From positions 1-44,074 of the forward strand of contig JACPXM010000007.1 in the NCBI GenBank assembly GCA_016196545.1: a DNA stretch of 44,074 bases. Direction: 5' to 3'. Source of the stretch: Candidatus Omnitrophota bacterium. Lineage in GTDB: Bacteria > Omnitrophota > Omnitrophia > Omnitrophales > Aquincolibacteriaceae. Below are positions 1,343-19,785 of this stretch, in pieces. The position numbers and the translations under genes were made by a program. The notes under the pieces are model-generated. The model did no database searches and was not told where the DNA came from. It was given only the letters and a program-made list of their open reading frames with translations. Numbering within the stretch: position 1 is the stretch's first letter; every line of letters starts with the position of its first letter.

Positions 1343-2578
1343 TCATCGATTGCGGCTGTCTTCTAAAACAGGTTGAGGTACGGGTGTCACCGCCGGTAAA
1401 AGATCCATACATGACCAGCCTTTCTGGACCGCGCGCAGTAACACCAACGCCGATAAAGCGGTTCCGGCAAAAATTAGAAATCCCACTCCGTAAGAACCCA
1501 TGGTCTGTTTAAAAAATCCAAGCAAGGTCGGAAGAAAAAATCCTCCAAGCCCTCCGGCGGCGCCGACAATCCCCGTCATCACCCCGATTTCTTTCTGAAA
1601 CCGTAAAGGGACGAGTTGGAATACGGAACCGTTTCCCATCCCCAAAGCTGCCATCACCAGAAAAATGAGAAACACCGTTGCCGCAAGCGGCGGAAGAAAA
1701 GAAATTCCAAACATCAATAAAGCCACGCATCCAAAGAGAACACTGAGAATCCGGACACCGCCAAAACGGTCGGCCAGATACCCGCCCACCGGACGGATAA
1801 AACTCCCGGCAAACACACAGAGTGCAGTAATTTGGCCGGCCATGACTTTGCTTAAACCAAATTGGTCATAAAAGAAAATTCCAAGGAAACTGGCCATTCC
1901 TACAAAACCGCCGAAAGTAACCCCGTAAAAAAAACAAAACCAGAAAGTATCGGCTTCTTTAAAAACCAAAAAATAATCGGCAAGTTTTTTCGGTTTTGGC
2001 TGCGTAGGACTTTCTTTAGCCAAGAAAATAAAAACCAAAAGCGTGAGGGTCACGGGGATAAGCGCAAGACCAAAAACATTCCGCCATCCCACGATTTCTG
2101 CCAAAACAGGTGCAAATAAAGAAGCAAGAACAGTCCCGCTGTTGCCCGCTCCCGCAATACCTAGTGCCATGCCTTGATGCTCCGCAGGATACCACCGGCT
2201 TGCAAGTGGAAGCGCCACGGCAAAACTGCCGCCAGCGATTCCCAAAAGCAATCCAAAGGCCAGGACGGTTTGAAAATGAGGCGCAAAAAGCCAAATCCCT
2301 AAAAGGGGGGTAAAAACAATAAGCTGCCCCAAAATTCCTGTTTTTTTGGGGCCCAGATGATCGACTAAAAAACCCAGCGGAAGGCGGACCAAGGATCCTC
2401 CGAGAATGGGAACTGCGGCCATAAAACCCTTCTGGGCCGGCGTAAGCCCAAATTCTTTTGAAATATAAACGCCGAGCACGCCCATCAAAACCCACACCAT
2501 AAAACTGATGTCAAAATAAAGAAAAGCAGAAAATAATGTCGGAGGATGCCCGCTTTTTAAAAAATCCTTAATTCTCAT
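1343..2578 (-). CDS. NarK/NasA-type MFS nitrate/nitrite transporter
   Basis: 12-TM MFS protein (VSKEFGLTPAQKGFMAAVPILGGSLVRLPLGFLVDHLGPKKTG) with GNSGTVLASLFAP and GAAGGLGGFFLPTLLG, resembling the glycine-rich nitrate signature motifs; in a nitrate assimilation cluster. Confidence 0.9.
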   Translation of the reverse strand: MRIKDFLKSGHPPTLFSAFLYFDISFMVWVLMGVLGVYISKEFGLTPAQKGFMAAVPILGGSLVRLPLGFLVDHLGPKKTGILGQLIVFTPLLGIWLFAPHFQTVLAFGLLLGIAGGSFAVALPLASRWYPAEHQGMALGIAGAGNSGTVLASLFAPVLAEIVGWRNVFGLALIPVTLTLLVFIFLAKESPTQPKPKKLADYFLVFKEADTFWFCFFYGVTFGGFVGMASFLGIFFYDQFGLSKVMAGQITALCVFAGSFIRPVGGYLADRFGGVRILSVLFGCVALLMFGISFLPPLAATVFLIFLVMAALGMGNGSVFQLVPLRFQKEIGVMTGIVGAAGGLGGFFLPTLLGFFKQTMGSYGVGFLIFAGTALSALVLLRAVQKGWSCMDLLPAVTPVPQPVLEDSRNR

Positions 2579-2592
2579 AGTTTCGTCTCCTT

Positions 2593-3978
2593 TTAAAAGG
2601 TAAGAACGGTTTGTGTATATAAAAAATTGGCGTCATCATGAGCGCCTGTGTCCTTGGCAAAAGGCCCCGCGAAAAAATGCGAATAACCGAGCATAAGATT
2701 CAAATGCTCAGTAAGTTTGTAAGTGCCCAAAAGATCAAGTTCCTCTCCCAATTGAGTGTCTGCATTCGCATTAGGCGCCCTGAAAGTGCCGCCTGCGGCG
2801 TTAAACCAGGCCGATTCCTTGGCATCCAGAAGGAACCAATGAAAATCTGAGGAAAGCTGAAGCCGGGTATGAGGTTTCACGCTTGTACCCACCATAAAAT
2901 CATTCATGTTTTTGAGAGAGAGAAAATCCATGAATCCATACTTGTTGTGGTTTGTCGGAAAAAGATTATCGAAGGTCTGGGATTTTCCATCGGTCGGATT
3001 GCGGTCGCCGGACGCGTGATTGTATTCGCCGTAAATCCGCGGCGTCCATGGCAGTTTCGACAGTGTATAACCGAGTGCCTGATGAAATGCCCAGGCCGCG
3101 ATTTCATCATGCGACCGGCTGCCAAGTTGAACCGCGTATTCAGTACCGTAATCAAAATCATATTCTTTCCCCTTAAACCGGTTCCCAAATGTGTACTCTT
3201 TAAGGGAACCATGCTCACCCGTCCGTTCCCCTGCGACGGTTCGATCTGTGTTGTCGCGGATAAAAAGAAAAGTGTCCAAGATTTGGCCCATATATTTCCG
3301 GAAAGGTTTCGTGCTGAGATAGATCCCGTAAGAATTGTCGCCATTCTGGGCCTGATCCCACTTTTCTTTTTCCACTTTCACTATGCGTGAGCCAAAAATA
3401 TCCAGTTGCACTTGGGGATTCGGATTAAAAATGAGTTTTAGAGCATCGAAAACACGGGCCGGATTCGTCCAATCAGAAGGACCGACGAAACGCTCATCCC
3501 CATAAGAAAGCACCTGGCGCCCGGCTTTTAAAGTTACGGGAGCCAGATGCCAGGGACTTTTGACCTCCGCAAAAAGCTGGCGAAGATCCAGCCAGTTCAC
3601 AAAGGTATTGGTTTTATCAACCTGGCTTTGAGCGAAGCTATGAGCCTCCTGGCCTTCAACAAAAAAATGCAAGGGCGTCTGGCCGGTATCCGAAAGATAG
3701 GAGACATCCATATTCAAACGATTCCGGAGTAAATGGAGAGAATCGTCTTCATAAGTGTTGTCGTTTAAATTGAAATCATCGCGATATTCGTAACGATAAC
3801 GCGATTGACCACCGATTTTAACTTTAACGCGGCTGTCGAAAAAAAGACGCGACTTAAAGAGGTCGTCGAGCTCTCGATCCAATCGATTAAAGATTTCCGG
3901 TTGTTGGGCTGCCATACAATGTAAAGGGCGGAAGAATATCCCCAAAATCAGCACGATGATGCTTCCCATGCGTTTCAT
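2593..3978 (-). CDS. Alginate-export-type outer-membrane beta-barrel porin
   Basis: Signal peptide followed by KIGGQSRYRYEYRDDFNLND...LLRNRLNMDVSY and LKAGRQVLSYGDERFVGPSDWTNPARVFDALKL, typical of the alginate_exp porin family; C-terminal aromatic residue. Confidence 0.8.
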   Translation of the reverse strand: MKRMGSIIVLILGIFFRPLHCMAAQQPEIFNRLDRELDDLFKSRLFFDSRVKVKIGGQSRYRYEYRDDFNLNDNTYEDDSLHLLRNRLNMDVSYLSDTGQTPLHFFVEGQEAHSFAQSQVDKTNTFVNWLDLRQLFAEVKSPWHLAPVTLKAGRQVLSYGDERFVGPSDWTNPARVFDALKLIFNPNPQVQLDIFGSRIVKVEKEKWDQAQNGDNSYGIYLSTKPFRKYMGQILDTFLFIRDNTDRTVAGERTGEHGSLKEYTFGNRFKGKEYDFDYGTEYAVQLGSRSHDEIAAWAFHQALGYTLSKLPWTPRIYGEYNHASGDRNPTDGKSQTFDNLFPTNHNKYGFMDFLSLKNMNDFMVGTSVKPHTRLQLSSDFHWFLLDAKESAWFNAAGGTFRAPNANADTQLGEELDLLGTYKLTEHLNLMLGYSHFFAGPFAKDTGAHDDANFLYTQTVLTF

Positions 3979-4032
3979 GTTTCTCCTTTTTTCACGAATC
4001 CTACTTTCTGCATCGTTGCAGTAAAATAGAAT

Positions 4033-4062
4033 CGTTTGAAAACATAAACGCCTTTGCTTATG
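4033..4062 (-). promoter_or_regulatory. Candidate second ANTAR-type hexaloop hairpin in the nasA-porin intergenic region
   Basis: Minus strand CATAAGC[AAAGGC]GTTTATG: 7-bp stem and AAAGGC hexaloop (A1, G4), the same loop as in the nirB leader. The 3' arm overlaps a weak CGTTT...AAACG hairpin followed by ATTCTATTTT. No clear partner hexaloop was found. Confidence 0.45.
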
Positions 4063-4108: not shown

Positions 4109-6307
4109 TTACTCCAGCTTGTAAACCCGTACCGCCGCTTGTTTGTAATTGGGTTCGCGGGAGTAGGGATCGCACATGCTTACTGTTAAATTATTGGCAT
4201 TCGCTTCCGCATAATGAAATGGAATAAAGATTTGGCCTGGAGCGACCGTCTCCGTCACGCGCAAGACGATATGCGAAATCTTTCCGCGTCTGGACTCCAC
4301 GCGAACATAATCCCCGTGCTGGAATTTTAGCTTTGCGGCATCGCGGGCATTCATTTCCACCCAGGCTTCCGGCGACAAATTATTAAGAAGAGGGATTTGT
4401 CCTGTTTTGGTGCGCGTATGCCAATGCTCGACCGTTCTTCCCGTATTGAGCCAAAAAGGATATTCCTCATTCGGAGTTTCCGGAGGCGCCTCATTTTCCA
4501 CCACCCAAAGTTTTGCGCGGCCATCTTGGGTTTGGAAAACTCCATCCTGATAAAGGGGATGGCTTTTGCGGGGATCTCGCGTGGTCTTTTCACCGTAAGG
4601 CCATTGAATACCTCCCAATTTTTCAATCAATTCATAACTCATCCCGGAATAATCGCAAAGTCTGTCGGCAGATACTTTTTTCCATTCTTCAAAAGCATGT
4701 TCCGGTTTTGTCCATCCTGGAAAGAGTCGCTCAGAAACTCCCAACTCTTTGGCAATGGAAAGAAAAATATCGAAATCTGATTTGGCTTCGCCGGGCGGTT
4801 CGACGGCTTTATTGACCTTACTCACCCGCCGTTCTGAATTGGTATAAGTCCCCTCTTTTTCACCCCACACCGCAGCCGGCAGAACAAGATTCGCAATCTC
4901 ACTTGTCGGAATAGGATGATAGCCGTCCTGAACGACAAGAAACTCCAGCCTTTCAAGGACTTCCAAGAGATAATTTTGGTTTGGAAAAGACACAAGAGGG
5001 TTGGTAGCAATAATCCATAATCCTTTGATTTTTTTGCTCAGAACCGCTTCGATAATATCCGGATAGGCTAGTCCTCGGGAGGATGGAATGATTTCCTGCT
5101 CAACCCCCCAAAGTGCCGCGAGTTCAGCGCGATGGCCTGGATCTTCAAATTTACGATATCCGGGAAGGCTCGAGGCAAATCCCGATTCGCGGGTGCCCAT
5201 AGCATTACATTGTCCGGTAATAGAAAAAGGCGAGGCCCCAATCCTACCGACATTGCCGGTGATCAAGGCAAGGTTGCAAATCGTATTCACCGTTACCGTG
5301 CCCTGCGTGCTGTGATTCACGCCCATGGTCCAACCGATGAAAGGAGCTTTGGCTTGAGCGTAAAGCATGGCCACTTTTCGAATCTGCCGGGCCGAAAGGC
5401 CTGTGATTTCACTCACATAATCCGGCGTATATTTTTCAAGATGCTTGCAAAGCTCTTCAAAACCCTGTGTGTGTTTTTCGATATAGGCTTGATTGGCTTT
5501 TCCCGCTTTAATAATCACATGCATGATTCCATTGAGTAGCGCGATGTCCGTCCGTGGCTTTAAAGGAAGAAAGATATCGGCCATCATGGCCGTTTTCGTC
5601 ACACGCGGATCTGCAACAATGACTATTTTCTTACGATTCTTTTCAAGGCGATAACAAAGAATGGGGTGATTGTCCGCAATATTGGCACCGATCAGAAAAA
5701 CCAAATCCGCTTTTTCCAAATCCTCATAATTGCCTGGAGGGCCGTCACTTCCAAAAGATCTTTTATAGCCAGACACTGCGCTGGCCATACAAAGTGTGGT
5801 ATTACCATCATAATTATTGGTGCGAAATCCAAGCCGCACTAACTTTCCGAGGGTATAAAACTCTTCAGTCACAAGCTGCCCGGTGCTGATCACACCAAGG
5901 GCGTCCGGTCCGTAACGGCTTTGAATGGAACGGAATTTTTCCACCAAGGTCTGAAGAGCTGCTTCCCACGTGACTTTCTGAAATTTTCCCTTTCCACCTT
6001 TCAGCAGAGGCCACTTCGCACGATTAGGGGCGGTGATCGCATAATGTTCGGCAAGTCCTTTGGGACAAAGACGGCCTTCATTGACGGGATGGTCCGGGTT
6101 TCCGCGAACGCTCACGGGCTTGCCCTTTTTAACGCCGATAAACATTCCACATCCGACAGAGCAATATCCACAGGTGGTCGACACCCAGTGATCCGGTATT
6201 TTAGCCTTTGCCATATAGCCGAACTGCTCATCAACATCATAGGCATATTTTTCCTTTTGAATATCAATGCCCAGTCGCTTCTTTGTGGAGTTTAAAAATT
6301 TTTTCAA
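4109..6307 (-). CDS. nasA: Assimilatory nitrate reductase catalytic subunit (molybdopterin oxidoreductase, NasA-type)
   Basis: N-terminal [4Fe-4S] motif CGYCSVGCGMFIGVKKGKPVSVRGNPDHPVNEGRLCPKG; molybdopterin-binding and C-terminal dinucleotide-binding domains (LNTGRTVEHWHTRTKTGQIPLL); located next to nirBD and an MFS nitrate transporter. No obvious Tat signal. Confidence 0.9.
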   Translation of the reverse strand: MKKFLNSTKKRLGIDIQKEKYAYDVDEQFGYMAKAKIPDHWVSTTCGYCSVGCGMFIGVKKGKPVSVRGNPDHPVNEGRLCPKGLAEHYAITAPNRAKWPLLKGGKGKFQKVTWEAALQTLVEKFRSIQSRYGPDALGVISTGQLVTEEFYTLGKLVRLGFRTNNYDGNTTLCMASAVSGYKRSFGSDGPPGNYEDLEKADLVFLIGANIADNHPILCYRLEKNRKKIVIVADPRVTKTAMMADIFLPLKPRTDIALLNGIMHVIIKAGKANQAYIEKHTQGFEELCKHLEKYTPDYVSEITGLSARQIRKVAMLYAQAKAPFIGWTMGVNHSTQGTVTVNTICNLALITGNVGRIGASPFSITGQCNAMGTRESGFASSLPGYRKFEDPGHRAELAALWGVEQEIIPSSRGLAYPDIIEAVLSKKIKGLWIIATNPLVSFPNQNYLLEVLERLEFLVVQDGYHPIPTSEIANLVLPAAVWGEKEGTYTNSERRVSKVNKAVEPPGEAKSDFDIFLSIAKELGVSERLFPGWTKPEHAFEEWKKVSADRLCDYSGMSYELIEKLGGIQWPYGEKTTRDPRKSHPLYQDGVFQTQDGRAKLWVVENEAPPETPNEEYPFWLNTGRTVEHWHTRTKTGQIPLLNNLSPEAWVEMNARDAAKLKFQHGDYVRVESRRGKISHIVLRVTETVAPGQIFIPFHYAEANANNLTVSMCDPYSREPNYKQAAVRVYKLE

Positions 6308-6319
6308 TGGGCCCCTACC

Positions 6320-7975
6320 TTAGTCGTGAAAAAAAGCCCCCGGCATATTTTTAGGAACCACTGTCACAAAAAATAAATACCTTCCCAAAAATTCTCCAAC
6401 GAGAGAAAAAAGAAAACAAACGAACCCAAGCCCAAGAAAGGCACTCCCCGCCAACGGGCCTGACTGCAAAAAGGCGAACAGCACAAAAGGGGAAATAAAA
6501 GACCCCAACACAAGCGCTGACAGCCGTATGAGAAAAAGCTTTTTGAACCGATGAATCAGAAGAAAGCTTGAGCCGTAAAGTTCATTCGACTCCATCCATT
6601 TAAACGAAAACAGTCTGGCTAGAAGAACGATCATTTGAAAAAAACCAGCCATGGTTGAAACCGCCAGAAATGCAAAAACCGGGGCCTTGGCAGCAAAACT
6701 TAGCGGGCCGGTGATCCGAAGAAAAACATAAACGCCATAAACTAAAAGGGCGAACAAAGGTCCTAAAATAAACCCCGTAAGAAAAAATCTCAGGGGGGTC
6801 CGGATCGTATTCCAGGCCGGTCTCGCAGGAACAAGATAGATTTTGGCGCTCGCATAGACGCCGGCGAGCCCAAAAATAACGACCACGGCACCAAGAAAAA
6901 CTATCGCATCATCGGGAATATTCCATTTCCAAAAATGCTTTGCCAATTCAAGCCCCGCATAAACTCCTCCCGTTTTGGAAAAAAGCGTAAAGAGAAGCAC
7001 TTCTCGCGACAGCCAGGAACGCTTCCACATCCGCAGGGCTTTATACGCATAAAGCGGCCGCCCCAGATGAAAAACAGCCGCAAAAAGCGCGACGCTCGTC
7101 ATCAAAAGCATGCCGACTGCTCCAAAGGGAAGAAAATCTTGAAGCGGTTTCAGAAAACCGATCCACCTTGAAAAAAATTCCAGCAGCCACAGCGTCATAA
7201 AACCTCCGGTGGCGAGCTGAGTCAAAACCGTCATCACGATTAAGGATGTGTGCGGCTTTTCGGGTTCAATGCGATGGCGGTTGGCACGAAGCAAATTTTC
7301 TGGGACATTGTCGGGAATCGTAATCCGAGTTGTTGAAATCGTCATTCTGGAATCCGGGACATGCGGCGCATCCGCTTCCTTGTGATTCTGCCGCCATTCT
7401 TCCACATTCACTTTTTCAATTTGAATGGCTCCTTGGGGACACGCCGCCACACAGGCTGGGAGTTCTCCGGCCTTCAAACGGCTGTGGCACATATCGCATT
7501 TCGTGACAATATTACGTTCAGGATTGTACTGAGGAACACCGTAAGGGCAGTTCCAGCTGCAATAACCGCAACCGATGCATTCTTCGGCTTTATGTTTGAC
7601 AATCCCATCTTCCAGTTTCACATAGGCATCTGTTGGACAACCTGTCAGGCATGCCGGATCAAGACAATGATTGCATGCCATGGAAAGATGAAAGCGTTTC
7701 GTATCCGGGTAAATACCTCCCTCCATTTCTCCGACCCGGCGCCAATTCACCGTGGCAGGATTGTTGTTCTGTTCGTTACATGCGACGACACAACATTGAC
7801 ATCCGATACAGAGGGTCATATCAAAGTGAAAGCGATATTGTTCCCCCTTCTTCAGCGGTTCTGCAGGGATGAGATTTTTCGGTGAGTAATAACCGTCTTT
7901 ACTGACACGGTTTTTAAGCGGCAGCTCACTTGAGTCCAGCAAATCAATCAAATTAAATTCTTCTGTTACGCTCAT
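6320..7975 (-). CDS. DmsB-like ferredoxin fused to DmsC-like membrane anchor
   Basis: N-terminal cysteine clusters CIGCQCCVVAC, CNHCLDPACLTGC, CIGCGYCSWNCPYG, CDMCHSRLKAGELPACVAAC, then a multi-TM domain (FHLGRPLYAYKALRMWKRSWLSREVLLF) typical of DmsC. Start overlaps nirD stop (ATGA). Confidence 0.9.
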   Translation of the reverse strand: MSVTEEFNLIDLLDSSELPLKNRVSKDGYYSPKNLIPAEPLKKGEQYRFHFDMTLCIGCQCCVVACNEQNNNPATVNWRRVGEMEGGIYPDTKRFHLSMACNHCLDPACLTGCPTDAYVKLEDGIVKHKAEECIGCGYCSWNCPYGVPQYNPERNIVTKCDMCHSRLKAGELPACVAACPQGAIQIEKVNVEEWRQNHKEADAPHVPDSRMTISTTRITIPDNVPENLLRANRHRIEPEKPHTSLIVMTVLTQLATGGFMTLWLLEFFSRWIGFLKPLQDFLPFGAVGMLLMTSVALFAAVFHLGRPLYAYKALRMWKRSWLSREVLLFTLFSKTGGVYAGLELAKHFWKWNIPDDAIVFLGAVVVIFGLAGVYASAKIYLVPARPAWNTIRTPLRFFLTGFILGPLFALLVYGVYVFLRITGPLSFAAKAPVFAFLAVSTMAGFFQMIVLLARLFSFKWMESNELYGSSFLLIHRFKKLFLIRLSALVLGSFISPFVLFAFLQSGPLAGSAFLGLGFVCFLFSLVGEFLGRYLFFVTVVPKNMPGAFFHD

Positions 7976-8367
7976 TCTTCAACCGGATTGGAAACTTGAG
8001 AATTTTGATCCTGCCCCGAAAGATCACATTCCTGGTAAGACGCCTCTTCAAATGCAAGATAAATTTCGTTTCTCGCCACTTTTACCGGAAATGTTTTGAC
8101 CCGCCCGGTTCCGCCACTGAGCGCGCAGCCGTTTTCCAAATTGATTTTCCAATTATGCAGCGGGCAGAAAACATTTTTTCCAGCCACGATGCCATCCGCC
8201 AAAGGACCGCCCTTATGCGGGCATTGATTCTCAACCGCAAGATATTCCTCTCCCAAATTAAAAAGAGCTACGACGTGCTGGCCATATTGAACCTGCCGCC
8301 CTTCTTTTTCTGGAATAGCTCCTACCCCCGCGACTCGAAACCATTTGATTTGTTTTGTGCCGTTCAT
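7972..8367 (-). CDS. nirD: Nitrite reductase small subunit / Rieske protein
   Basis: Rieske motif CPHKGGPLADG...CPLHNWKINLENG; start MNGTKQIKWFRVA overlaps the nirB stop (ATGA). Confidence 0.92.
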   Translation of the reverse strand: MNGTKQIKWFRVAGVGAIPEKEGRQVQYGQHVVALFNLGEEYLAVENQCPHKGGPLADGIVAGKNVFCPLHNWKINLENGCALSGGTGRVKTFPVKVARNEIYLAFEEASYQECDLSGQDQNSQVSNPVEE

Positions 8368-10805
8368 GACACACTTCCAATCAAAGCTTCCGCTTCCTTT
8401 GGAAGCACAAAATCCTTGAATTGCATGGGATGAACGGGTTTTGAGGCCTCTCCCCACGGATTCACAACTTTAGCTCTGGCCCTGGCCAAACGATCGAGCA
8501 GGCCTTTTTTTGTTTCCTCGGAAGCCAGGACTGTTTCGCGACGGATTTTTTCGAGGCCCACTCGCACCACAAAATCATAAGTCCGTTCGATGTACTCTCC
8601 ATTTTCACGATAATATTGAAAAAAGAGCAGTGCGGCCTCCAAAGCCTCTTCGGTTGTTTTGACAGTCACTAAAATATCCGCAGCCCGAACGATTTTTCCT
8701 GCCGCACCGCCGATGACAACCTGCCATCCGCCCTCCATTCCTACGAGCCCAATATCTTTGACCGTTGCTTCAGCACAGTTTCTTGGGCAACCCACCACCC
8801 CCATTTTGACTTTCGCTGGCGTGTAAAGGCCTTCCAAAAGAGTTTCGAGTTTGATTCCGGTCTCGATCGAGTTTTGAGTTCCGTAGCGGCAGAAATCCGT
8901 TCCCACACAGGATTTGACCATTCGCACAGCCTTGGCATACGCATGCCCGGATTTCATACCAAGATCCGCCCATACCTTGGGGAGATCCTCTTTTTTAATT
9001 CCGAGAAGGTCAATGCGCTGACTGCCCGTCACCTTGACCATTGGGACTTTGTATTTTTCCGCCACGTCGGCAATTTTGCGCAATTGTTCCGGACTTGTTA
9101 CGCCGCCATGCATGCGTGGAATCACAGAAAAAGTCCCGTCCCTCTGAATGTTCGCGTGCACGCGATCATTGATAAATCGAGCCGAGCGGTCTTCTTTGTG
9201 ATCTCCACAGTGAACTTCATCCACAATAAAACTTAAGGCGGGTTTACAAAAAGAACAACCGATGGCATTTCCGTAAATATCTAAAACATCCTGCACGGAT
9301 TTTAGTTTCTGCGTTTCAATCATCGTCCGGAGCTGCTCTTTGGGGAAAGGGACGCAGGCACATAACGTTTCCTTTTTCTCTTCCTGAAATTCAGAACCCA
9401 GTGCGGCCACCAAAATATCCTGAACAAGGCCGGCACAGGTGCCGCAACCCGAAGAAGCTTTCGTGCAGGCTTTCACTTGGGAAACAGTTTTACAGTCTTG
9501 ATCTTTGATCGCAGAAAGAATTTGTCCCTTCGAAACACCAATACATCCGCAAATGGTATCGGTATCCGCCCGCGACATCACATCCGAGGGAGATCCGCTA
9601 GCCGCCACTGACTCCCCAAAAAGAAGCCCTTTTCTCCCTTTGCTGATCAATTCCTTTTTTCGCATTAATTCAAGCAGCTTGTTTGCATCGGAGGCATCCC
9701 CAATCAAAATAGTTCCAATCACCCGGTCATGTTGAAACACAATTTTTTTATAAATACCCAACCCCTGATCTTGGTAAGCCGCGATTTCTTTGTCCGGTCC
9801 ATCCGCTTTAAAATCTCCGGCAGAGAAAAGTTCGATTCCCATAATTTTTAGTTTGGTTGCCAAAACGGAACCTTCATAAACCATCCCTTTGTCTCCCGTC
9901 ATAGTTGCTGCCAGCACTTTCCCTTGGTCATAAAGAGGCGCTACAAGACCGTAAACTTTGCCCCGGTGTTCAACGCATTCGCCAACCGCAAAAATACTCG
10001 GATCGTTTGTTTCCATCATGTCGTTCACAACGATTCCACGATTGACTTCTAAACCCGCTTTTTTTCCAAGTTCGACATTGGGCCGTATGCCGCACGCGAT
10101 CACAACCATATCGGTCTCGACCTGAGAGCCGTCTTTAAACAGAACCCCTTGAACATTTTCCTCCCCTAAAATCTGAGTCGTGTTTTTATTCAAAAGGATT
10201 GAAATCCCTAGTTTCTCAATCTCACGCTTGAGAAAATTTCCTCCAACTTCATCGAGCTGCACATCCATAAGCCGGTCCAGCAAATGCACAACAGTAACGG
10301 GTACTTTCTGATTCGAAATTCCGCGCGCAGCTTCAAGCCCCAAAAGGCCGCCGCCAATCACTAAAGCATGTTTCGAGGTTTTGCAGGCAGCGAGAATATT
10401 TTCCGTGTCCGCCATATTGCGGAAAGTAAACACACCTTTTTTATTAACTCCTTCAATAGGCGGAATGAAAGGATTGCTGCCGGTCGCTAAAAGCAAAAGA
10501 TCATATGAAAACGTTCGGCCATCTGCGGTATGAATAACTTTATTTTTAGGATCGACATCAATGACTTTAGCTTCCAAACAAAGCATAATTTCATTTTGCT
10601 CATACCATTCCTTACTATTAATGTAGATCTCGTTCAAATTTTTCTCGCCGGCAAGAACGGAGGAAAGGAGAATCCGGTTATAGTTGTAATAAGATTCTTC
10701 ACTTAAAACAGTGATTCTGAAATTGGGTTTTCTTTTCAGAATCTGATCCACGCAAGCAATGCCGGCCATTCCATTACCAACAACTATTAAATGTTTTTGT
10801 TCCAT
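8364..10805 (-). CDS. nirB: Nitrite reductase [NAD(P)H] large subunit
   Basis: FAD/NAD-binding N-terminus (VVGNGMAGIACVDQIL), BFD-like [2Fe-2S] regions (CGCIGVSKGQI, CGTCAGLVQDI, CSFCKPALSF), and sirohaem/4Fe-4S region CVGTDFCRYG...GCPRNCAEATVKDIG. Confidence 0.96.
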   Translation of the reverse strand: MEQKHLIVVGNGMAGIACVDQILKRKPNFRITVLSEESYYNYNRILLSSVLAGEKNLNEIYINSKEWYEQNEIMLCLEAKVIDVDPKNKVIHTADGRTFSYDLLLLATGSNPFIPPIEGVNKKGVFTFRNMADTENILAACKTSKHALVIGGGLLGLEAARGISNQKVPVTVVHLLDRLMDVQLDEVGGNFLKREIEKLGISILLNKNTTQILGEENVQGVLFKDGSQVETDMVVIACGIRPNVELGKKAGLEVNRGIVVNDMMETNDPSIFAVGECVEHRGKVYGLVAPLYDQGKVLAATMTGDKGMVYEGSVLATKLKIMGIELFSAGDFKADGPDKEIAAYQDQGLGIYKKIVFQHDRVIGTILIGDASDANKLLELMRKKELISKGRKGLLFGESVAASGSPSDVMSRADTDTICGCIGVSKGQILSAIKDQDCKTVSQVKACTKASSGCGTCAGLVQDILVAALGSEFQEEKKETLCACVPFPKEQLRTMIETQKLKSVQDVLDIYGNAIGCSFCKPALSFIVDEVHCGDHKEDRSARFINDRVHANIQRDGTFSVIPRMHGGVTSPEQLRKIADVAEKYKVPMVKVTGSQRIDLLGIKKEDLPKVWADLGMKSGHAYAKAVRMVKSCVGTDFCRYGTQNSIETGIKLETLLEGLYTPAKVKMGVVGCPRNCAEATVKDIGLVGMEGGWQVVIGGAAGKIVRAADILVTVKTTEEALEAALLFFQYYRENGEYIERTYDFVVRVGLEKIRRETVLASEETKKGLLDRLARARAKVVNPWGEASKPVHPMQFKDFVLPKEAEALIGSVS

Positions 10806-10843: not shown

Positions 10844-10879
10844 AAAGGCGTTCAACGAATCTATCCGCTGAACGCCTTT
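10844..10879 (-). terminator. Intrinsic terminator in the nirB leader (attenuator)
   Basis: Minus strand AAAGGCGTTCA-GCGGATAGATTCGT-TGAACGCCTTT followed by TTGCTTTT: perfect 11-bp stem plus U-rich tract, between the ANTAR gene and nirB. Confidence 0.88.
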
Positions 10880-10915
10880 GCTCAACTTTTGAACTGGAAC
10901 GCCGTTGCCCCAGTT
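10867..10915 (-). promoter_or_regulatory. Dual-hexaloop ANTAR RNA antiterminator
   Basis: Minus strand P1 AACTGGGGC[AACGGC]GTTCCAGTT (10892-10915) and P2 GTTGAGC[AAAGGC]GTTCAGC (10867-10886), 5-nt linker, both loops with A1 and G4. P2 shares bases with the 5' arm of the terminator. Confidence 0.88.
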
Positions 10916-10953: not shown

Positions 10954-11667
10954 CTAATTCGCAATTTCCTCCGATAAAATAATTGCTTCCGCAATATCCT
11001 TCAAAGAATGGCCTTTATCCATGCTCTGTTTTTGGAGTATCCTATAGGCTTCTGCCTCACTGATGGAGTGCCTCTTAATCAAAATACCTTTGGCACGCTC
11101 AATCCGCTTACGGGCTTCAAGTGCTTCAACTGCGGTAATCTTCTCTGTTAAAAGATTTGTGTTTTCAATCGCGACCGCGGCCTGATTGGCAACCCCAACG
11201 AGAAGCTGAATTTCCTCTTCGCCAAATTCATGTTCCGTTGTTGTATAACAGTTTAGGACCCCAATCACCCGGTTTTTTATCATCATGGGAACCGAAACAA
11301 GTGACCGTAAGCCCTCTGTTTTTGCAATTTCCGGATATTTGTAACCGCTTTCCGCGGTAACATCGCGTACTGTAATCGGAACTTTTTTCTGAACAACCCT
11401 TCCGACGACACTCTCACCGACTTTAATCGGAGGCTTGGTACGGTAATGCTCACTTAAACTTTGGGTGGCTTTAATCACAAGCTCCTGTTTTTCTTCATCC
11501 AATAACATGAGTGAACAAATTTTAGATCCCATGAGGTCTGCCGTCATTCCCACCACAAGCAAAAGAATTTCTTCAACGTAGCGGTTGGACGTAATAGCAC
11601 GGCTAACTTCATAAAGGAGATCGAATCCTTTATGCTTTTTTGACTTGAGGCCATCATATTCAGTCAT
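10954..11667 (-). CDS. GAF-ANTAR domain transcription antiterminator
   Basis: N-terminal GAF domain (ADLMGSKICSLMLLDEEKQELVIKATQ...VSVPMMIKNRVIGVLNCYTT) and C-terminal ANTAR (ARKRIERAKGILIKRHSISEAEAYRILQKQSMDKGHSLKDIAEAII). Confidence 0.93.
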   Translation of the reverse strand: MTEYDGLKSKKHKGFDLLYEVSRAITSNRYVEEILLLVVGMTADLMGSKICSLMLLDEEKQELVIKATQSLSEHYRTKPPIKVGESVVGRVVQKKVPITVRDVTAESGYKYPEIAKTEGLRSLVSVPMMIKNRVIGVLNCYTTTEHEFGEEEIQLLVGVANQAAVAIENTNLLTEKITAVEALEARKRIERAKGILIKRHSISEAEAYRILQKQSMDKGHSLKDIAEAIILSEEIAN

Positions 11668-12306
11668 CGCTCACTATGGACCAGCTTTTCTGCTCAAATA
11701 CTTTTAATCTTTCAAAAGTCTTCACAAAAAGGTAACTAAAAAGGACATTTTTGTAAGAGAAGTCTGCTCTTTTCTCTCGTATGACTATTTATTGTAGGGA
11801 GTATGCCCCCTGATATACATAAATCATGCCAAATAATTTTATTTTTAGCCTTATCATCCTAAATCAAGGCCTTTTTCTTTCTGCCCCCCCCATTGAACAA
11901 CAACGATTTCAAGAACCTGCCTTATTGATCTCTTAAACACTTTGAGGGCAGGTTTCTGGGCAATTCCCAAATCAGTGGAAATAATTTCCTTTCTATAGGA
12001 AAGCACATGGAAATAGTTATTTTTTGCCTGGATAACTAAATATAATTATCTTTTGGAAGGAAATCAAAAGGTTGAAAAAAAAGTAAGAATACAACGCGGA
12101 AGCTAGGTCTTAGTTTTTGTAACTTCTTATTCATCAATGCCATACATAACAAGTCCGCATGTTTGGAATAAAAATCATACGGAGCTTTGTCCATCGGTCA
12201 GCCAAAAGTTTTAATGCTGACTTTTAATGGTTTATCTTGTGTGTTCATGAGTAGTTAGTAAAATTTATTGAGTTTGTCGAGCCGATGAATTCACATGACT
12301 GTGACT

Positions 12307-13086
12307 TCACTTAAGAATTCTAACAATTTCCGCAAGAAAAACATCTACATCATGTGAAAAATTGACTTGGGTTCTGTTCGGCAATACTTCTTTTTTTCTG
12401 ATCTGGCAATGAAGGTGCTGATCTGCGATTTTCCGAGATGAATTCTCAAGATGCTGCATTGATTCTCGAAATGATTTGGATCCACCGTAATTAGAAGCGA
12501 CCTGAGCAAAGGTTTTCTGTCCAAAAATCGGCGGCACATGATCAATGACTGCTCGAGTCAGTTGAATGACTGATATATAAGATTCGTTTTGAAATGCTAG
12601 ATTTATTTCTTTTAAAATCTGGAGAAGCCTTGATAAATCAAAATCAGAATGCCTTAAAGCCTTTAACTGCTGCATTCGATCGTAATTGATAAAAGAATCG
12701 TGAGAAGGCCCTTTAAGTTGTCCGTGTGGTTGTTCTGGCAAATCACCTGATTCATAAATACCGATTGCTTTATTTAGAGCATCTAAAATACTATCTGGCG
12801 GAACAGCGTAAGGACCGCCTTCGTTGTGAAACATATCGTCTATCAAATCCATGCTGAAAAGGAACCCACCAGCTACAGGTGCTGCCCTACCAGACATACG
12901 GGTAGGCACATTAGCATTACTCAGATATTTTTTCATTTTCGTCGATTGCCTTGTAATCGCTTCTCTAATTGTTTTTAGCTGTTCTTCGGAGACGGAACTA
13001 TAGTGATCGAATCTATGTTGAAAATACAAAGAGACATTTTTTTTAAAATTATCTATTTCTGAGATTATCTTTTTATATTCAGTCAT
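12307..13086 (-). CDS. Hypothetical protein, second gene of an overlapping two-gene module
   Basis: 259-aa ORF; start overlaps the upstream ORF stop (ATGA); C-terminus HLHCQIRKKEVLPNRTQVNFSHDVDVFLAEIVRIL; no family assigned. Confidence 0.6.
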   Translation of the reverse strand: MTEYKKIISEIDNFKKNVSLYFQHRFDHYSSVSEEQLKTIREAITRQSTKMKKYLSNANVPTRMSGRAAPVAGGFLFSMDLIDDMFHNEGGPYAVPPDSILDALNKAIGIYESGDLPEQPHGQLKGPSHDSFINYDRMQQLKALRHSDFDLSRLLQILKEINLAFQNESYISVIQLTRAVIDHVPPIFGQKTFAQVASNYGGSKSFRESMQHLENSSRKIADQHLHCQIRKKEVLPNRTQVNFSHDVDVFLAEIVRILK

Positions 13087-13712
13087 TTGGCGTTAGCTGG
13101 GTCAACTCGTTCTTTCAAAAAGGTATTCTGAAAGTCTTCGATCCAATCAGGAAACATTACCGCATTATATTCGTTCTTATCTTCAAAGCTTTCATACCGA
13201 AGAGCCTTGATATGCTTTCCATAAAACTTTTTCCATATGCCTTCCCTGTCTTCGTTTATGTATGGCTTCGGAACACCCTCTGCAGCACATATCGAATCCA
13301 TATCTATAGCGTCAATACTGGTCTTTAAGGTCAGCTTCCAAAGAACTTTGTTTTTGGCATCACTCTCTTGAAGAGCGACATGAACTTTATACGTAACGCA
13401 AGTACTCGCAGTCCCTACGCCGATTGCCTGCCCATTCTCATATAACGATGCAAACTCCTTGGGACCAGGATATTGTGAAGGTTGTGAGGAAAACCTGGAG
13501 TATAGACCGCTTGGAATAACTGGGTCTATACCGTCATCCACAACTCTATAAAAAATTGTCCCCGCTTGCATAGTCATTTTGTGTAGGTTTAAGTCAATCT
13601 TATCGATATCGATGTCGCTCAAATTCTTATGCATAGGTCTTCCCAATAAACGCCGCAACCCCTTCCGCCAAAGCTTGGCAAACCTGTATTGCATTCGAAA
13701 TATGATGGTCAT
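13083..13712 (-). CDS. Hypothetical protein, possibly a divergent RES-like (NAD-processing) domain
   Basis: 209-aa ORF with FYRVVDDGIDPVIPSGLYSRFSS...FASLYENGQAIGVGTASTCVTYKVH, loosely resembling RES-domain spacing; the family is uncertain. Confidence 0.5.
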   Translation of the reverse strand: MTIIFRMQYRFAKLWRKGLRRLLGRPMHKNLSDIDIDKIDLNLHKMTMQAGTIFYRVVDDGIDPVIPSGLYSRFSSQPSQYPGPKEFASLYENGQAIGVGTASTCVTYKVHVALQESDAKNKVLWKLTLKTSIDAIDMDSICAAEGVPKPYINEDREGIWKKFYGKHIKALRYESFEDKNEYNAVMFPDWIEDFQNTFLKERVDPANAK

Positions 13713-15108: not shown

Positions 15109-15183
15109 ACACCCGGTGTGTCGACGGTTCCTACACCCAACCACCCTGACACCCGGTGTGAAATGCTTTTACACACCGGGTGT
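15109..15183. repeat. Cluster of ACACCCGGTGTG elements (two direct, one inverted)
   Basis: ACACCCGGTGTG at 15109-15120 and 15149-15160; its exact inverse CACACCGGGTGT at 15172-15183. Each copy contains the internal dyad ACACC-C-GGTGT. Confidence 0.9.
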
Positions 15184-15248
15184 AGGAGAGGTGCGGCTAT
15201 TGTCAACAACCTGCTGCCGTCAGATAGACGCCCATGCAGGGTTTTTCT

Positions 15249-15277
15249 TGAAGCACAATGAACACAAGCTTTATAAT
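15249..15277 (+). promoter_or_regulatory. Candidate sigma70-type promoter
   Basis: TTGAAG, about 18 nt, then TATAAT, upstream of the deoxyhypusine-synthase-like gene. Confidence 0.5.
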
Positions 15278-15304
15278 GACAGTATTTTAACCAAGGAGGA
15301 CCGT

Positions 15305-16318
15305 ATGGCGACTGTGGCTCAGAAAACAAAGAAAAAGGTCTCTGAAAGGGGCGGGGCGATCAAAAATTTTATCAAGCATCACTTCCGCCACTTTAATGCG
15401 GCCGTCATCGTGGATGCTGCCGAGGCCTGGGTCCAATATTTGGAAGACGGCAACAAAATGTTTTTCACCATGGCGGGCGCCATGAGCACGGGCGAACTCG
15501 GGCTTTCGCTTGCGGAAATGATTCGCCAAAATAAAATTCACGGCATTTGCACCACGGGCGCTAATCTCGAAGAAGATATTTTTAATCTTGTGGCCCATGA
15601 TTTTTATAAGCGGGTTCCCCAATACCGCAACCTTACGCCGAAAGAAGAATTAGAACTTCGGGACAAAGGGTTAAATCGTGTCACCGATACTTGCATTCCG
15701 GAAGAAGAAGCAATGCGAAGGATTGAACGGGAGGTGCTCAAATTCTGGCAAAAGGCAGATCAAGAAAAGAAGCGCTGTTTTCCTTACGAATATATGTATC
15801 AGCTCTTGAGAAGCGGCGCCATTGAAAAATGGTATCAAATTGATCTCAAAGATTCGTGGGTCGCAGCCGCGTGTGAAAAAAACTTGCCGATTTTTACTCC
15901 GGGCTGGGAAGATTCCACCCTCGGTAATATCTTTGTCGCCAATGTCAGACGCAAGGAGGTGTCCGAGTTTCACGTCGTAAAATCCGGCGTCGAGCAAATG
16001 GATTTTCTGATTGATTGGTACAAGCAAAATACGAAAACCGGAAGTCTTGGTTTTTTTCAAATCGGCGGAGGCATTGCAGGTGACTTTCCAATTTGCGTGG
16101 TCCCGTTGATTCAGCAGGATTTAAAGGAAAACTGCAAACTCTGGGGCTATTTTTGTCAAATTTCCGACAGTACGACCTCTTACGGTTCTTACAGCGGCGC
16201 TGTCCCCAATGAGAAAATCACCTGGGGCAAGCTCGACATCAACACCCCACGTTTCATCATTGAATCAGACGCCACCATCGTCGCTCCCCTCGTCTTCGCC
16301 TATGTCCTCGGACAATAA
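15305..16318 (+). CDS. Deoxyhypusine synthase-like protein
   Basis: MATVAQKTKKKVSERGGAIKNFIKHHFRHFNAAVIVDAAEAW...FTMAGAMSTGELGLSLAEMI...ICTTGANLEEDIFNL...QIGGGIAGDFPICVVP...EKITWGKLDI, typical of the bacterial DHS-like family. Start at 15305 has AAGGAGGA upstream; the tracked ORF start at 15116 is too long. Confidence 0.92.
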   Translation: MATVAQKTKKKVSERGGAIKNFIKHHFRHFNAAVIVDAAEAWVQYLEDGNKMFFTMAGAMSTGELGLSLAEMIRQNKIHGICTTGANLEEDIFNLVAHDFYKRVPQYRNLTPKEELELRDKGLNRVTDTCIPEEEAMRRIEREVLKFWQKADQEKKRCFPYEYMYQLLRSGAIEKWYQIDLKDSWVAAACEKNLPIFTPGWEDSTLGNIFVANVRRKEVSEFHVVKSGVEQMDFLIDWYKQNTKTGSLGFFQIGGGIAGDFPICVVPLIQQDLKENCKLWGYFCQISDSTTSYGSYSGAVPNEKITWGKLDINTPRFIIESDATIVAPLVFAYVLGQ

Positions 16319-18838: not shown

Positions 18839-19785
18839 AATTTCTTGACCACACGCGTTCCCAAGAGGCCCTGGGGCCTAAAAAGCAGGATTAAAATCAG
18901 AATAAAAAACGCAAACACATTTTTCCATTCCGAGGAAAGATAACCCGCGCCGAGGCCTTCCAGCACTCCGATTAAAATACCTCCGATCAAAGCCCCCGGA
19001 ATATTTCCGATGCCTCCAAGCACAGCGGCCGTAAATGCCTTCAGGCCGGCCAAATAGCCATCGTGAAAATTAATCGTGTTGTAATACATTCCAAACATCA
19101 AGCCGCCGGCACCGGCCATGGCAGAGCCGATCACAAAGGTCTGGGTAATCACACGGTTCACGGGAATGCCCATCAAATAGGCCGCCTGCCTGTCCTCGGC
19201 CAGCGCACGCATCGCCTTGCCCGTTCTCGTGTGCATGATCACAAGATTGAGAAGTCCCATCAAAATCAAGGCTGCGGCCGCGATAATCATTTGAAGATTG
19301 GTGAAAGTCACGGCACCGAAGGAAAACCGGTGAATGGGGATTAAATTGGGAAAATATTTGTCTTGAGGGCCGTAGAGAAGCATCACAGCATTTTGCAAAA
19401 GGAAAGAAACGCCAATGGCTGTAATAAGGGGCGCAAGGCGCGGGGCGTTATGAAGGGGGCGATAAGCGGTTTGTTCCACCAAGGCGCCGAGTGCGGAGCA
19501 TCCCAACATCGTGAAAATAAAAATGAGTGGGACTAAAATCACAAGGCCCGCGGGCCCAAAGGCAAACCCTTGAATCGCAAGGTAAATGGTCAGGCCTAAA
19601 TAGGCCCCGACCATAAAAATCTCGCCATGCGCAAAATTAATCAACTGGGCGATCCCATAAACCATGGTATAGCCCAGCGCAATCATCGCGTAAATGATCC
19701 CTAGGGTGAGGCCATTGATGATTTGCTGGAAGAAAATATCAAGCGCCGACAAAGCGTCACTCGGAGCGTTGCGAGGCAATCCCAA
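18835..19785 (-). CDS. livH: Branched-chain amino acid ABC transporter permease
   Basis: FFQQIINGLTLGIIYAMIALGYTMVYGIAQLINFAHGEIFMVGAY, typical LivH; true start may be downstream of the ORF-track start. Confidence 0.93.
   Translation of the reverse strand: MGLPRNAPSDALSALDIFFQQIINGLTLGIIYAMIALGYTMVYGIAQLINFAHGEIFMVGAYLGLTIYLAIQGFAFGPAGLVILVPLIFIFTMLGCSALGALVEQTAYRPLHNAPRLAPLITAIGVSFLLQNAVMLLYGPQDKYFPNLIPIHRFSFGAVTFTNLQMIIAAAALILMGLLNLVIMHTRTGKAMRALAEDRQAAYLMGIPVNRVITQTFVIGSAMAGAGGLMFGMYYNTINFHDGYLAGLKAFTAAVLGGIGNIPGALIGGILIGVLEGLGAGYLSSEWKNVFAFFILILILLFRPQGLLGTRVVKKL

Follow-up and report, generated by a model that had tools for sequence, protein, structure and literature searches.

A predicted ANTAR-controlled attenuator in the nirB leader of a nitrate operon from an uncultured Omnitrophota bacterium

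Locus and gene order

The window analysed here, a stretch of 44,074 nucleotides from an uncultured Omnitrophota bacterium (contig JACPXM010000007.1), carries on its minus strand a run of nitrate and nitrite genes headed by a gene for a GAF-ANTAR protein (Table 1). Read along that strand, the order observed is the GAF-ANTAR gene, 38 nt, a first hairpin (P1), a 5-nt linker (CAAAA), a second hairpin (P2), an intrinsic terminator, and then nirB, whose start codon lies 38 nt beyond the end of the terminator.

Table 1. Features of the nitrate operon, its regulator gene and its leader in the window
Feature	Position	Strand	Remarks
Weak sigma54-like -24/-12 site TTGGCATGATTTATGTA, 5' of the regulator gene	11816..11832	minus	10/13 consensus positions
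GAF-ANTAR protein gene, predicted antiterminator	10954..11667	minus	237 aa; Pfam GAF_2 3e-22, ANTAR 8.7e-21
P1 hairpin	10915-10892	minus	AACTGGGGC-AACGGC-GTTCCAGTT, 9 bp, hexaloop AACGGC
P2 hairpin	10886-10867	minus	GTTGAGC-AAAGGC-GTTCAGC, 7 bp, hexaloop AAAGGC
Intrinsic terminator	10879-10844	minus	16 bp with G-U pairs, U-rich tail after
nirB, large subunit of NAD(P)H nitrite reductase and first of the structural genes after the switch	8364..10805	minus	TIGR02374 888 bits
nirD-like Rieske protein gene	7972..8457	minus	TIGR02378 82.1 bits, cut-off 74.65
4Fe-4S/DmsC-like electron-transfer and membrane-anchor protein gene	6320..7975	minus	
nasA-like molybdopterin nitrate reductase gene	4109..6307	minus	Pfam; under every NCBIfam cut-off, with NasC at 532 bits
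Possible second ANTAR-type element, before the porin gene	4008..4062	minus	R1 17.7 bits; 0.1% of shuffles
Outer-membrane porin gene	2593..3978	minus	Alginate_exp family
narK-like nitrate/nitrite transporter gene	1343..2578	minus	TIGR00886 294.6 bits, just below cut-off 311.7

The arrangement recurs in relatives as a GAF-ANTAR gene, a dual-hexaloop terminator, and then nirB, P-II/nirA, narK or porin genes. Behind the element lie nirB, nirD-like, Fe-S/DmsC and nasA genes in L149 and L151, nirB in L159, P-II and nirA in L033, L035 and L050, narK and then nirB in L046 (where the first loop, GTAGTC, is without A1), and a porin gene in L150; in L158, read on the downstream side, the element stands ahead of P-II and nirA. 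In the genome G083 a porin gene on a separate contig is provided with a sigma54-like site and a dual-hexaloop terminator of its own (L167/L171), and the regulon can therefore span several transcription units.

Elsewhere in the window, two adjoining genes at 12307-13712 (minus strand) have no NCBIfam match, the first being without a Pfam match as well, and a deoxyhypusine-synthase-like gene, here in a bacterium, lies at 15116-16318 (plus strand) and scores under all family cut-offs.

The leader RNA and its predicted action

Both hairpins of the nirB leader carry a hexaloop with A at position 1 and G at position 4 (A1/G4), just as an earlier note on this DNA had read them, and the two loops are 21 nt apart. 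The terminator, which that note took for a perfect 11-bp stem, does contain the 11 quoted perfect pairs but is longer, at 16 bp including G-U pairs. Its 5' arm is made up of hexaloop 2, the 3' arm of P2 and the next bases, so that P2 and the terminator are mutually exclusive, and the claim that this arm is built from the second hexaloop hairpin is borne out by the overlap. The presence of dual hexaloops and an overlapping terminator before nirB is confirmed as real.

Folding was among the checks that the note had proposed. The 148-nt leader is much more stable than its shuffles (z -4.3), and none of 5000 dinucleotide shuffles yields a pair of A1/G4 hexaloop hairpins whose stems reach 9 and 7 bp. 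Folded separately, P1 has an energy of -11.4, P2 of -3.4 and the terminator of -23.5 kcal/mol; by itself the terminator exceeds P2 in stability by a wide margin, so that the default is likely to be termination, and read-through therefore needs something that holds P2. An extra hairpin just 5' of P1 in the minimum-energy fold was considered as a possible competitor of P1; it is not evident when the sequence of L149 is inspected. An Rfam search of the leader matches no family.

From its sequence, the nirB leader is very probably an ANTAR-controlled transcription attenuator, providing nitrogen control in the style of NasR and NasT with a GAF input, and the original prediction of an ANTAR antitermination switch is in this sense supported. 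Transcription would pass through the GAF-ANTAR gene into the leader, where by default the P2 region would refold into the terminator and RNA polymerase would halt before nirB. On receipt of a signal by the GAF domain, the ANTAR protein would bind both hexaloops as a dimer and stabilise P2, the 5' arm of the terminator would be kept from pairing, and polymerase would continue into nirB, nirD, the electron-transfer gene and nasA, perhaps also into the porin and narK genes. The sequences show the anatomy of the RNA, its conservation in a recurring gene order and the retention of the residues that read the loops; RNA binding, dimerisation, antitermination and the signal are what we infer from this arrangement.

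The terminator is strong on its own and closes the regulator gene, as would be expected if it were no more than an ordinary intrinsic terminator belonging to that gene and the hexaloop hairpins were accidental. Such an account is very improbable, given that paired hexaloops recur in many relatives at the same site, on the same strand and with different stem sequences, and are absent from shuffles; it would also leave the downstream operon without an evident promoter in the 38-nt gap before the hairpins.

It is also conceivable, though unlikely, that binding of the protein to the hexaloops affects translation or the stability of the RNA, or leads to repression instead of activation. ANTAR targets near ribosome-binding sites are noted in the passages of Ramesh et al. 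2012 (PMC3369931) drawn on here, and the possible element before the porin gene is of such a form: its hexaloops, AAAGGC (on 7 bp) and AACGAT (on 4 bp, capping a long hairpin), come just before the ribosome-binding site, with no U tract and no terminator. In the nirB leader, however, the terminator ends 38 nt short of the start codon and shares bases with P2, as it does in every relative aligned, and attenuation is the best fit.

The porin element of the window may represent a non-terminator type of ANTAR target. A similar arrangement precedes the porin gene of G083 (L171, 372-404), with other stem letters and with GAGGGT replacing the second loop. The regulon of the organism itself was sought with the covariance model (R1, below) only, in an assembly that is 72% complete, and within that assembly the nirB leader is the only convincing target. 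Another candidate (C26, 18.9 bits) was rejected, as it lies inside a histidine-kinase coding sequence.

Recurrence in relatives

A scan for dual hexaloops with an overlapping terminator finds 16 matches in 874 kb of ANTAR-gene loci, whereas a single shuffled copy gives none; among the weakest matches one or two are probably chance, and a weak match at position 18959 of the window was set aside as such. Eleven elements taken from the scan make up the alignment A2, from which the covariance model R1 was built. A2 has two-sided changes at 8 of 10 pairs (4 of 5 in each stem), a figure that is partly circular because the scan that picked its members required paired stems.

The covariance-model search that the earlier note had suggested recovers the element beside GAF-ANTAR genes in relatives. 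All 53 matches of R1 with E up to 1 in 83 loci have the same orientation as the ANTAR gene; for the 42 non-seed matches, p = 2e-13 if they are treated as independent, which is only a guide because related loci are not. Among 49 matches checked, 37 fall within 600 nt of an ANTAR gene (22 downstream, 15 upstream). Across 47 genomes of the order, R1 at E <= 1e-3 matches in 8 of 18 that bear an ANTAR gene against 1 of 29 that lack one (p = 0.001). Orthologous leaders matched from outside the set used to build the model include those of L149, L158, L159, L161 and L167, the first of these being the nearest relative (regulator 90%, nirB 83% identical).

Compensatory variation had been expected in both hexaloop stems, and it appears in one of them. 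In the alignment A4, which holds nine leaders (eight from genomes of the order that bear an ANTAR gene, together with L162), P1 has two-sided changes at 3 of 5 pairs, but P2 has one-sided changes only; two-sided changes in P2 are found in the pairing-selected A2 and not in leaders of the nitrate clade. The P2 stem is therefore less proven than P1, and not independently proven, although an absence of two-sided change fits its double duty. Across the nine leaders, 99% of cells in the 13-bp terminator core are paired.

Some observations count against control of these leaders by an ANTAR protein. Adding 20 nt between the hexaloops abolished antitermination by EutV (PMC8934654), whereas the spacing among relatives runs from 13 to 35 nt in most and reaches about 52 nt in L151. 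Another is that a convincing element occurs in G034, a 92% complete genome in which no ANTAR gene was found.

The element of G034 (L162, minus strand, near 1540) is a good dual-hexaloop and terminator structure before a gene of no assigned function. In L151 (5406-5480), a GACT/AGTC pairing within the linker might bring the two distant loops together.

The GAF-ANTAR protein

Pfam finds GAF and ANTAR in one chain, with ANTAR at 73.9 bits over 27.3. The N-terminal part is GAF and has no Pfam match to a NIT domain, so the earlier reading of a GAF in place of a NIT sensor was right. This is the only ANTAR gene found in the organism's own genome (72% complete). The residues with which EutV holds the flipped loop base G4 (R142, K149, E160 and Y164; PMC8934654) are all kept in an alignment to 6wsh, where an offset of 2 between the numbering of the paper and that of the PDB chain is read from the letters. 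At the EutV backbone contacts R168, N173, R175 and R177 the Omnitrophota protein has Q, D, G and S instead, a difference that counts against the proposed mechanism. Of the NasR residues, R340 and K347, which are needed for RNA binding, align to R and K, and K345 aligns to R, given a 27-residue PDB offset likewise deduced from the letters.

In the tree, the regulators of seven nitrate-clade loci form one group with 100/100 support, and a second nitrate-linked group (L035, L050 and L046, with L037) is separate from it. A literature search found no GAF-ANTAR protein that had been characterised with RNA; the term GAF-ANTAR is used in one paper.

All seven nitrate-clade regulators have a sigma54-like site scoring at least 10/13 within 330 nt upstream, against none of 75 other GAF-ANTAR loci. 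A random segment reaches that score by chance at a rate of 4%, and the seven sites amount to fewer than seven tests because the seven share ancestry. In the site of the window, GT replaces GC in the -12 part. The organism's own genome encodes sigma54 and a P-II protein. By analogy with Klebsiella, where Ntr control is combined with the nitrate-responsive NasR (PMC5424462), and as NtrC control is combined with NasT in Paracoccus (PMC5424462), a sigma54 promoter, well kept in relatives and weak in the window, probably adds control by nitrogen limitation at initiation.

The signal

Two signals can be proposed for the same switch, and general nitrogen status and nitrate or nitrite are about evenly balanced as candidates. 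Quite possibly, the GAF domain reports nitrogen status, in the form of glutamine or 2-oxoglutarate. It best resembles the GAF domains of PtsP (NCBIfam 67.6 bits; PDB 3trc and 3ci6) and NifA (61.5 bits), of which that of PtsP binds glutamine (PMC4848567), and sister GAF-ANTAR genes that have the element adjoin genes for NAD synthetase, glutamate dehydrogenase, glutamate-synthase-like proteins and glutamine synthetase. Resemblance among GAF domains predicts the ligand poorly, however; the clade's own sigma54-like promoter could already carry nitrogen status, and every member of the clade is tied to nitrate genes.

With a chance falling just short of even, the GAF domain may instead bind nitrate or nitrite, making the protein a functional replacement for NasR. 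The clade is linked exclusively to nitrate and nitrite genes, NreA of staphylococci provides a precedent for nitrate binding by a GAF domain (PMC8139620), which also speaks against the nitrogen-status reading, and Klebsiella pairs its Ntr control with a regulator that responds to nitrate (PMC5424462). The domain does match the NreA family, but very weakly, at 21.4 bits, far under the cut-off of 175.

Several loci from Nitrospirales and Syntrophobacterales, L079, L069, L098, L101 and L105 among them, have a GAF-ANTAR gene, a P2-like hexaloop with a terminator, and a gene for glutamine-dependent NAD synthetase. At these NAD-synthetase loci P1 is often poorly defined.

Relation to known systems

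The mechanism proposed for the nirB leader is already established for NasR, NasT, AmiR and EutV, and GnfR of Geobacter may be a further parallel. The Omnitrophota protein would work like NasR and NasT, and by its sequence belongs to neither family. In the sources as drawn on here (PMC3369931, PMC5424462), NasR and the nasF leader of Klebsiella oxytoca likewise combine a one-component ANTAR protein with a dual-hexaloop leader and overlapping terminator, in a nitrate-assimilation operon with Ntr control as a second layer; NasR has a NIT sensor, however, whereas the Omnitrophota protein has a GAF domain and its host is an uncultured member of that phylum. NasT-NasS and the nasA leader of Paracoccus and relatives share the placement of the regulator gene directly upstream, with the attenuator between regulator and nas genes, and the control of NasT by NtrC (PMC5424462) may be compared with the sigma54-like site of the nitrate clade. 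NasT depends on a separate sensor, NasS, in contrast to a sensor within the ANTAR protein itself. EutV and the eut leaders of Enterococcus faecalis are alike in their A1/G4 dual hexaloops, the overlap of P2 with the terminator and the residues that read G4, but EutV is a phosphorylated response regulator for ethanolamine. Nor is the sensor of the NreA type of GAF nitrate receptor, by the family cut-off given above.

The ANTAR-target RNA, including its overlap with a terminator, was defined by Ramesh et al. 2012 (PMC3369931), whose covariance searches in diverse bacteria, in the passages drawn on here, place elements before genes for nitrate/nitrite transporters, nitrite reductase, P-II and glutamine metabolism. 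The mechanism is therefore not new, since the predictions of 2012 already covered dual-hexaloop ANTAR targets ahead of nitrogen genes, among them nitrite reductase. In the same passages no case from Omnitrophota is named, and no GAF-ANTAR protein is described as characterised. What is new is confined to the host, a GAF input in the setting of nitrate genes, the coupling to sigma54 in this clade and the breadth of the pairing between GAF-ANTAR genes and the element.

A wider generalisation, to which we give somewhat less than even chances, is that GAF-ANTAR proteins exert post-initiation nitrogen control over several phyla, reading nitrogen status or nitrate through the GAF domain and releasing terminators before genes for nirB/nirA, P-II, glutamate dehydrogenase, glutamine synthetase and NAD synthetase, with the present operon as its sigma54-coupled nitrate branch. 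If true, no ANTAR antiterminator with a GAF input would have had a defined RNA target before this one. For an uncultured phylum, the predicted nirB switch supplies a rule for the timing of nitrate use that is concrete and testable, and it offers a clean pair of regulator and target for the GAF-ANTAR proteins, a group treated as uncharacterised in the portions of the ANTAR literature drawn on here. The element recurs before nitrogen genes in several phyla, and the ligand of the GAF domain is therefore a well-posed question.

At one of the related loci (L035, 37-1191), the ANTAR protein apparently has two tandem GAF domains and is encoded before P-II, nirA and a molybdenum-cofactor cluster.
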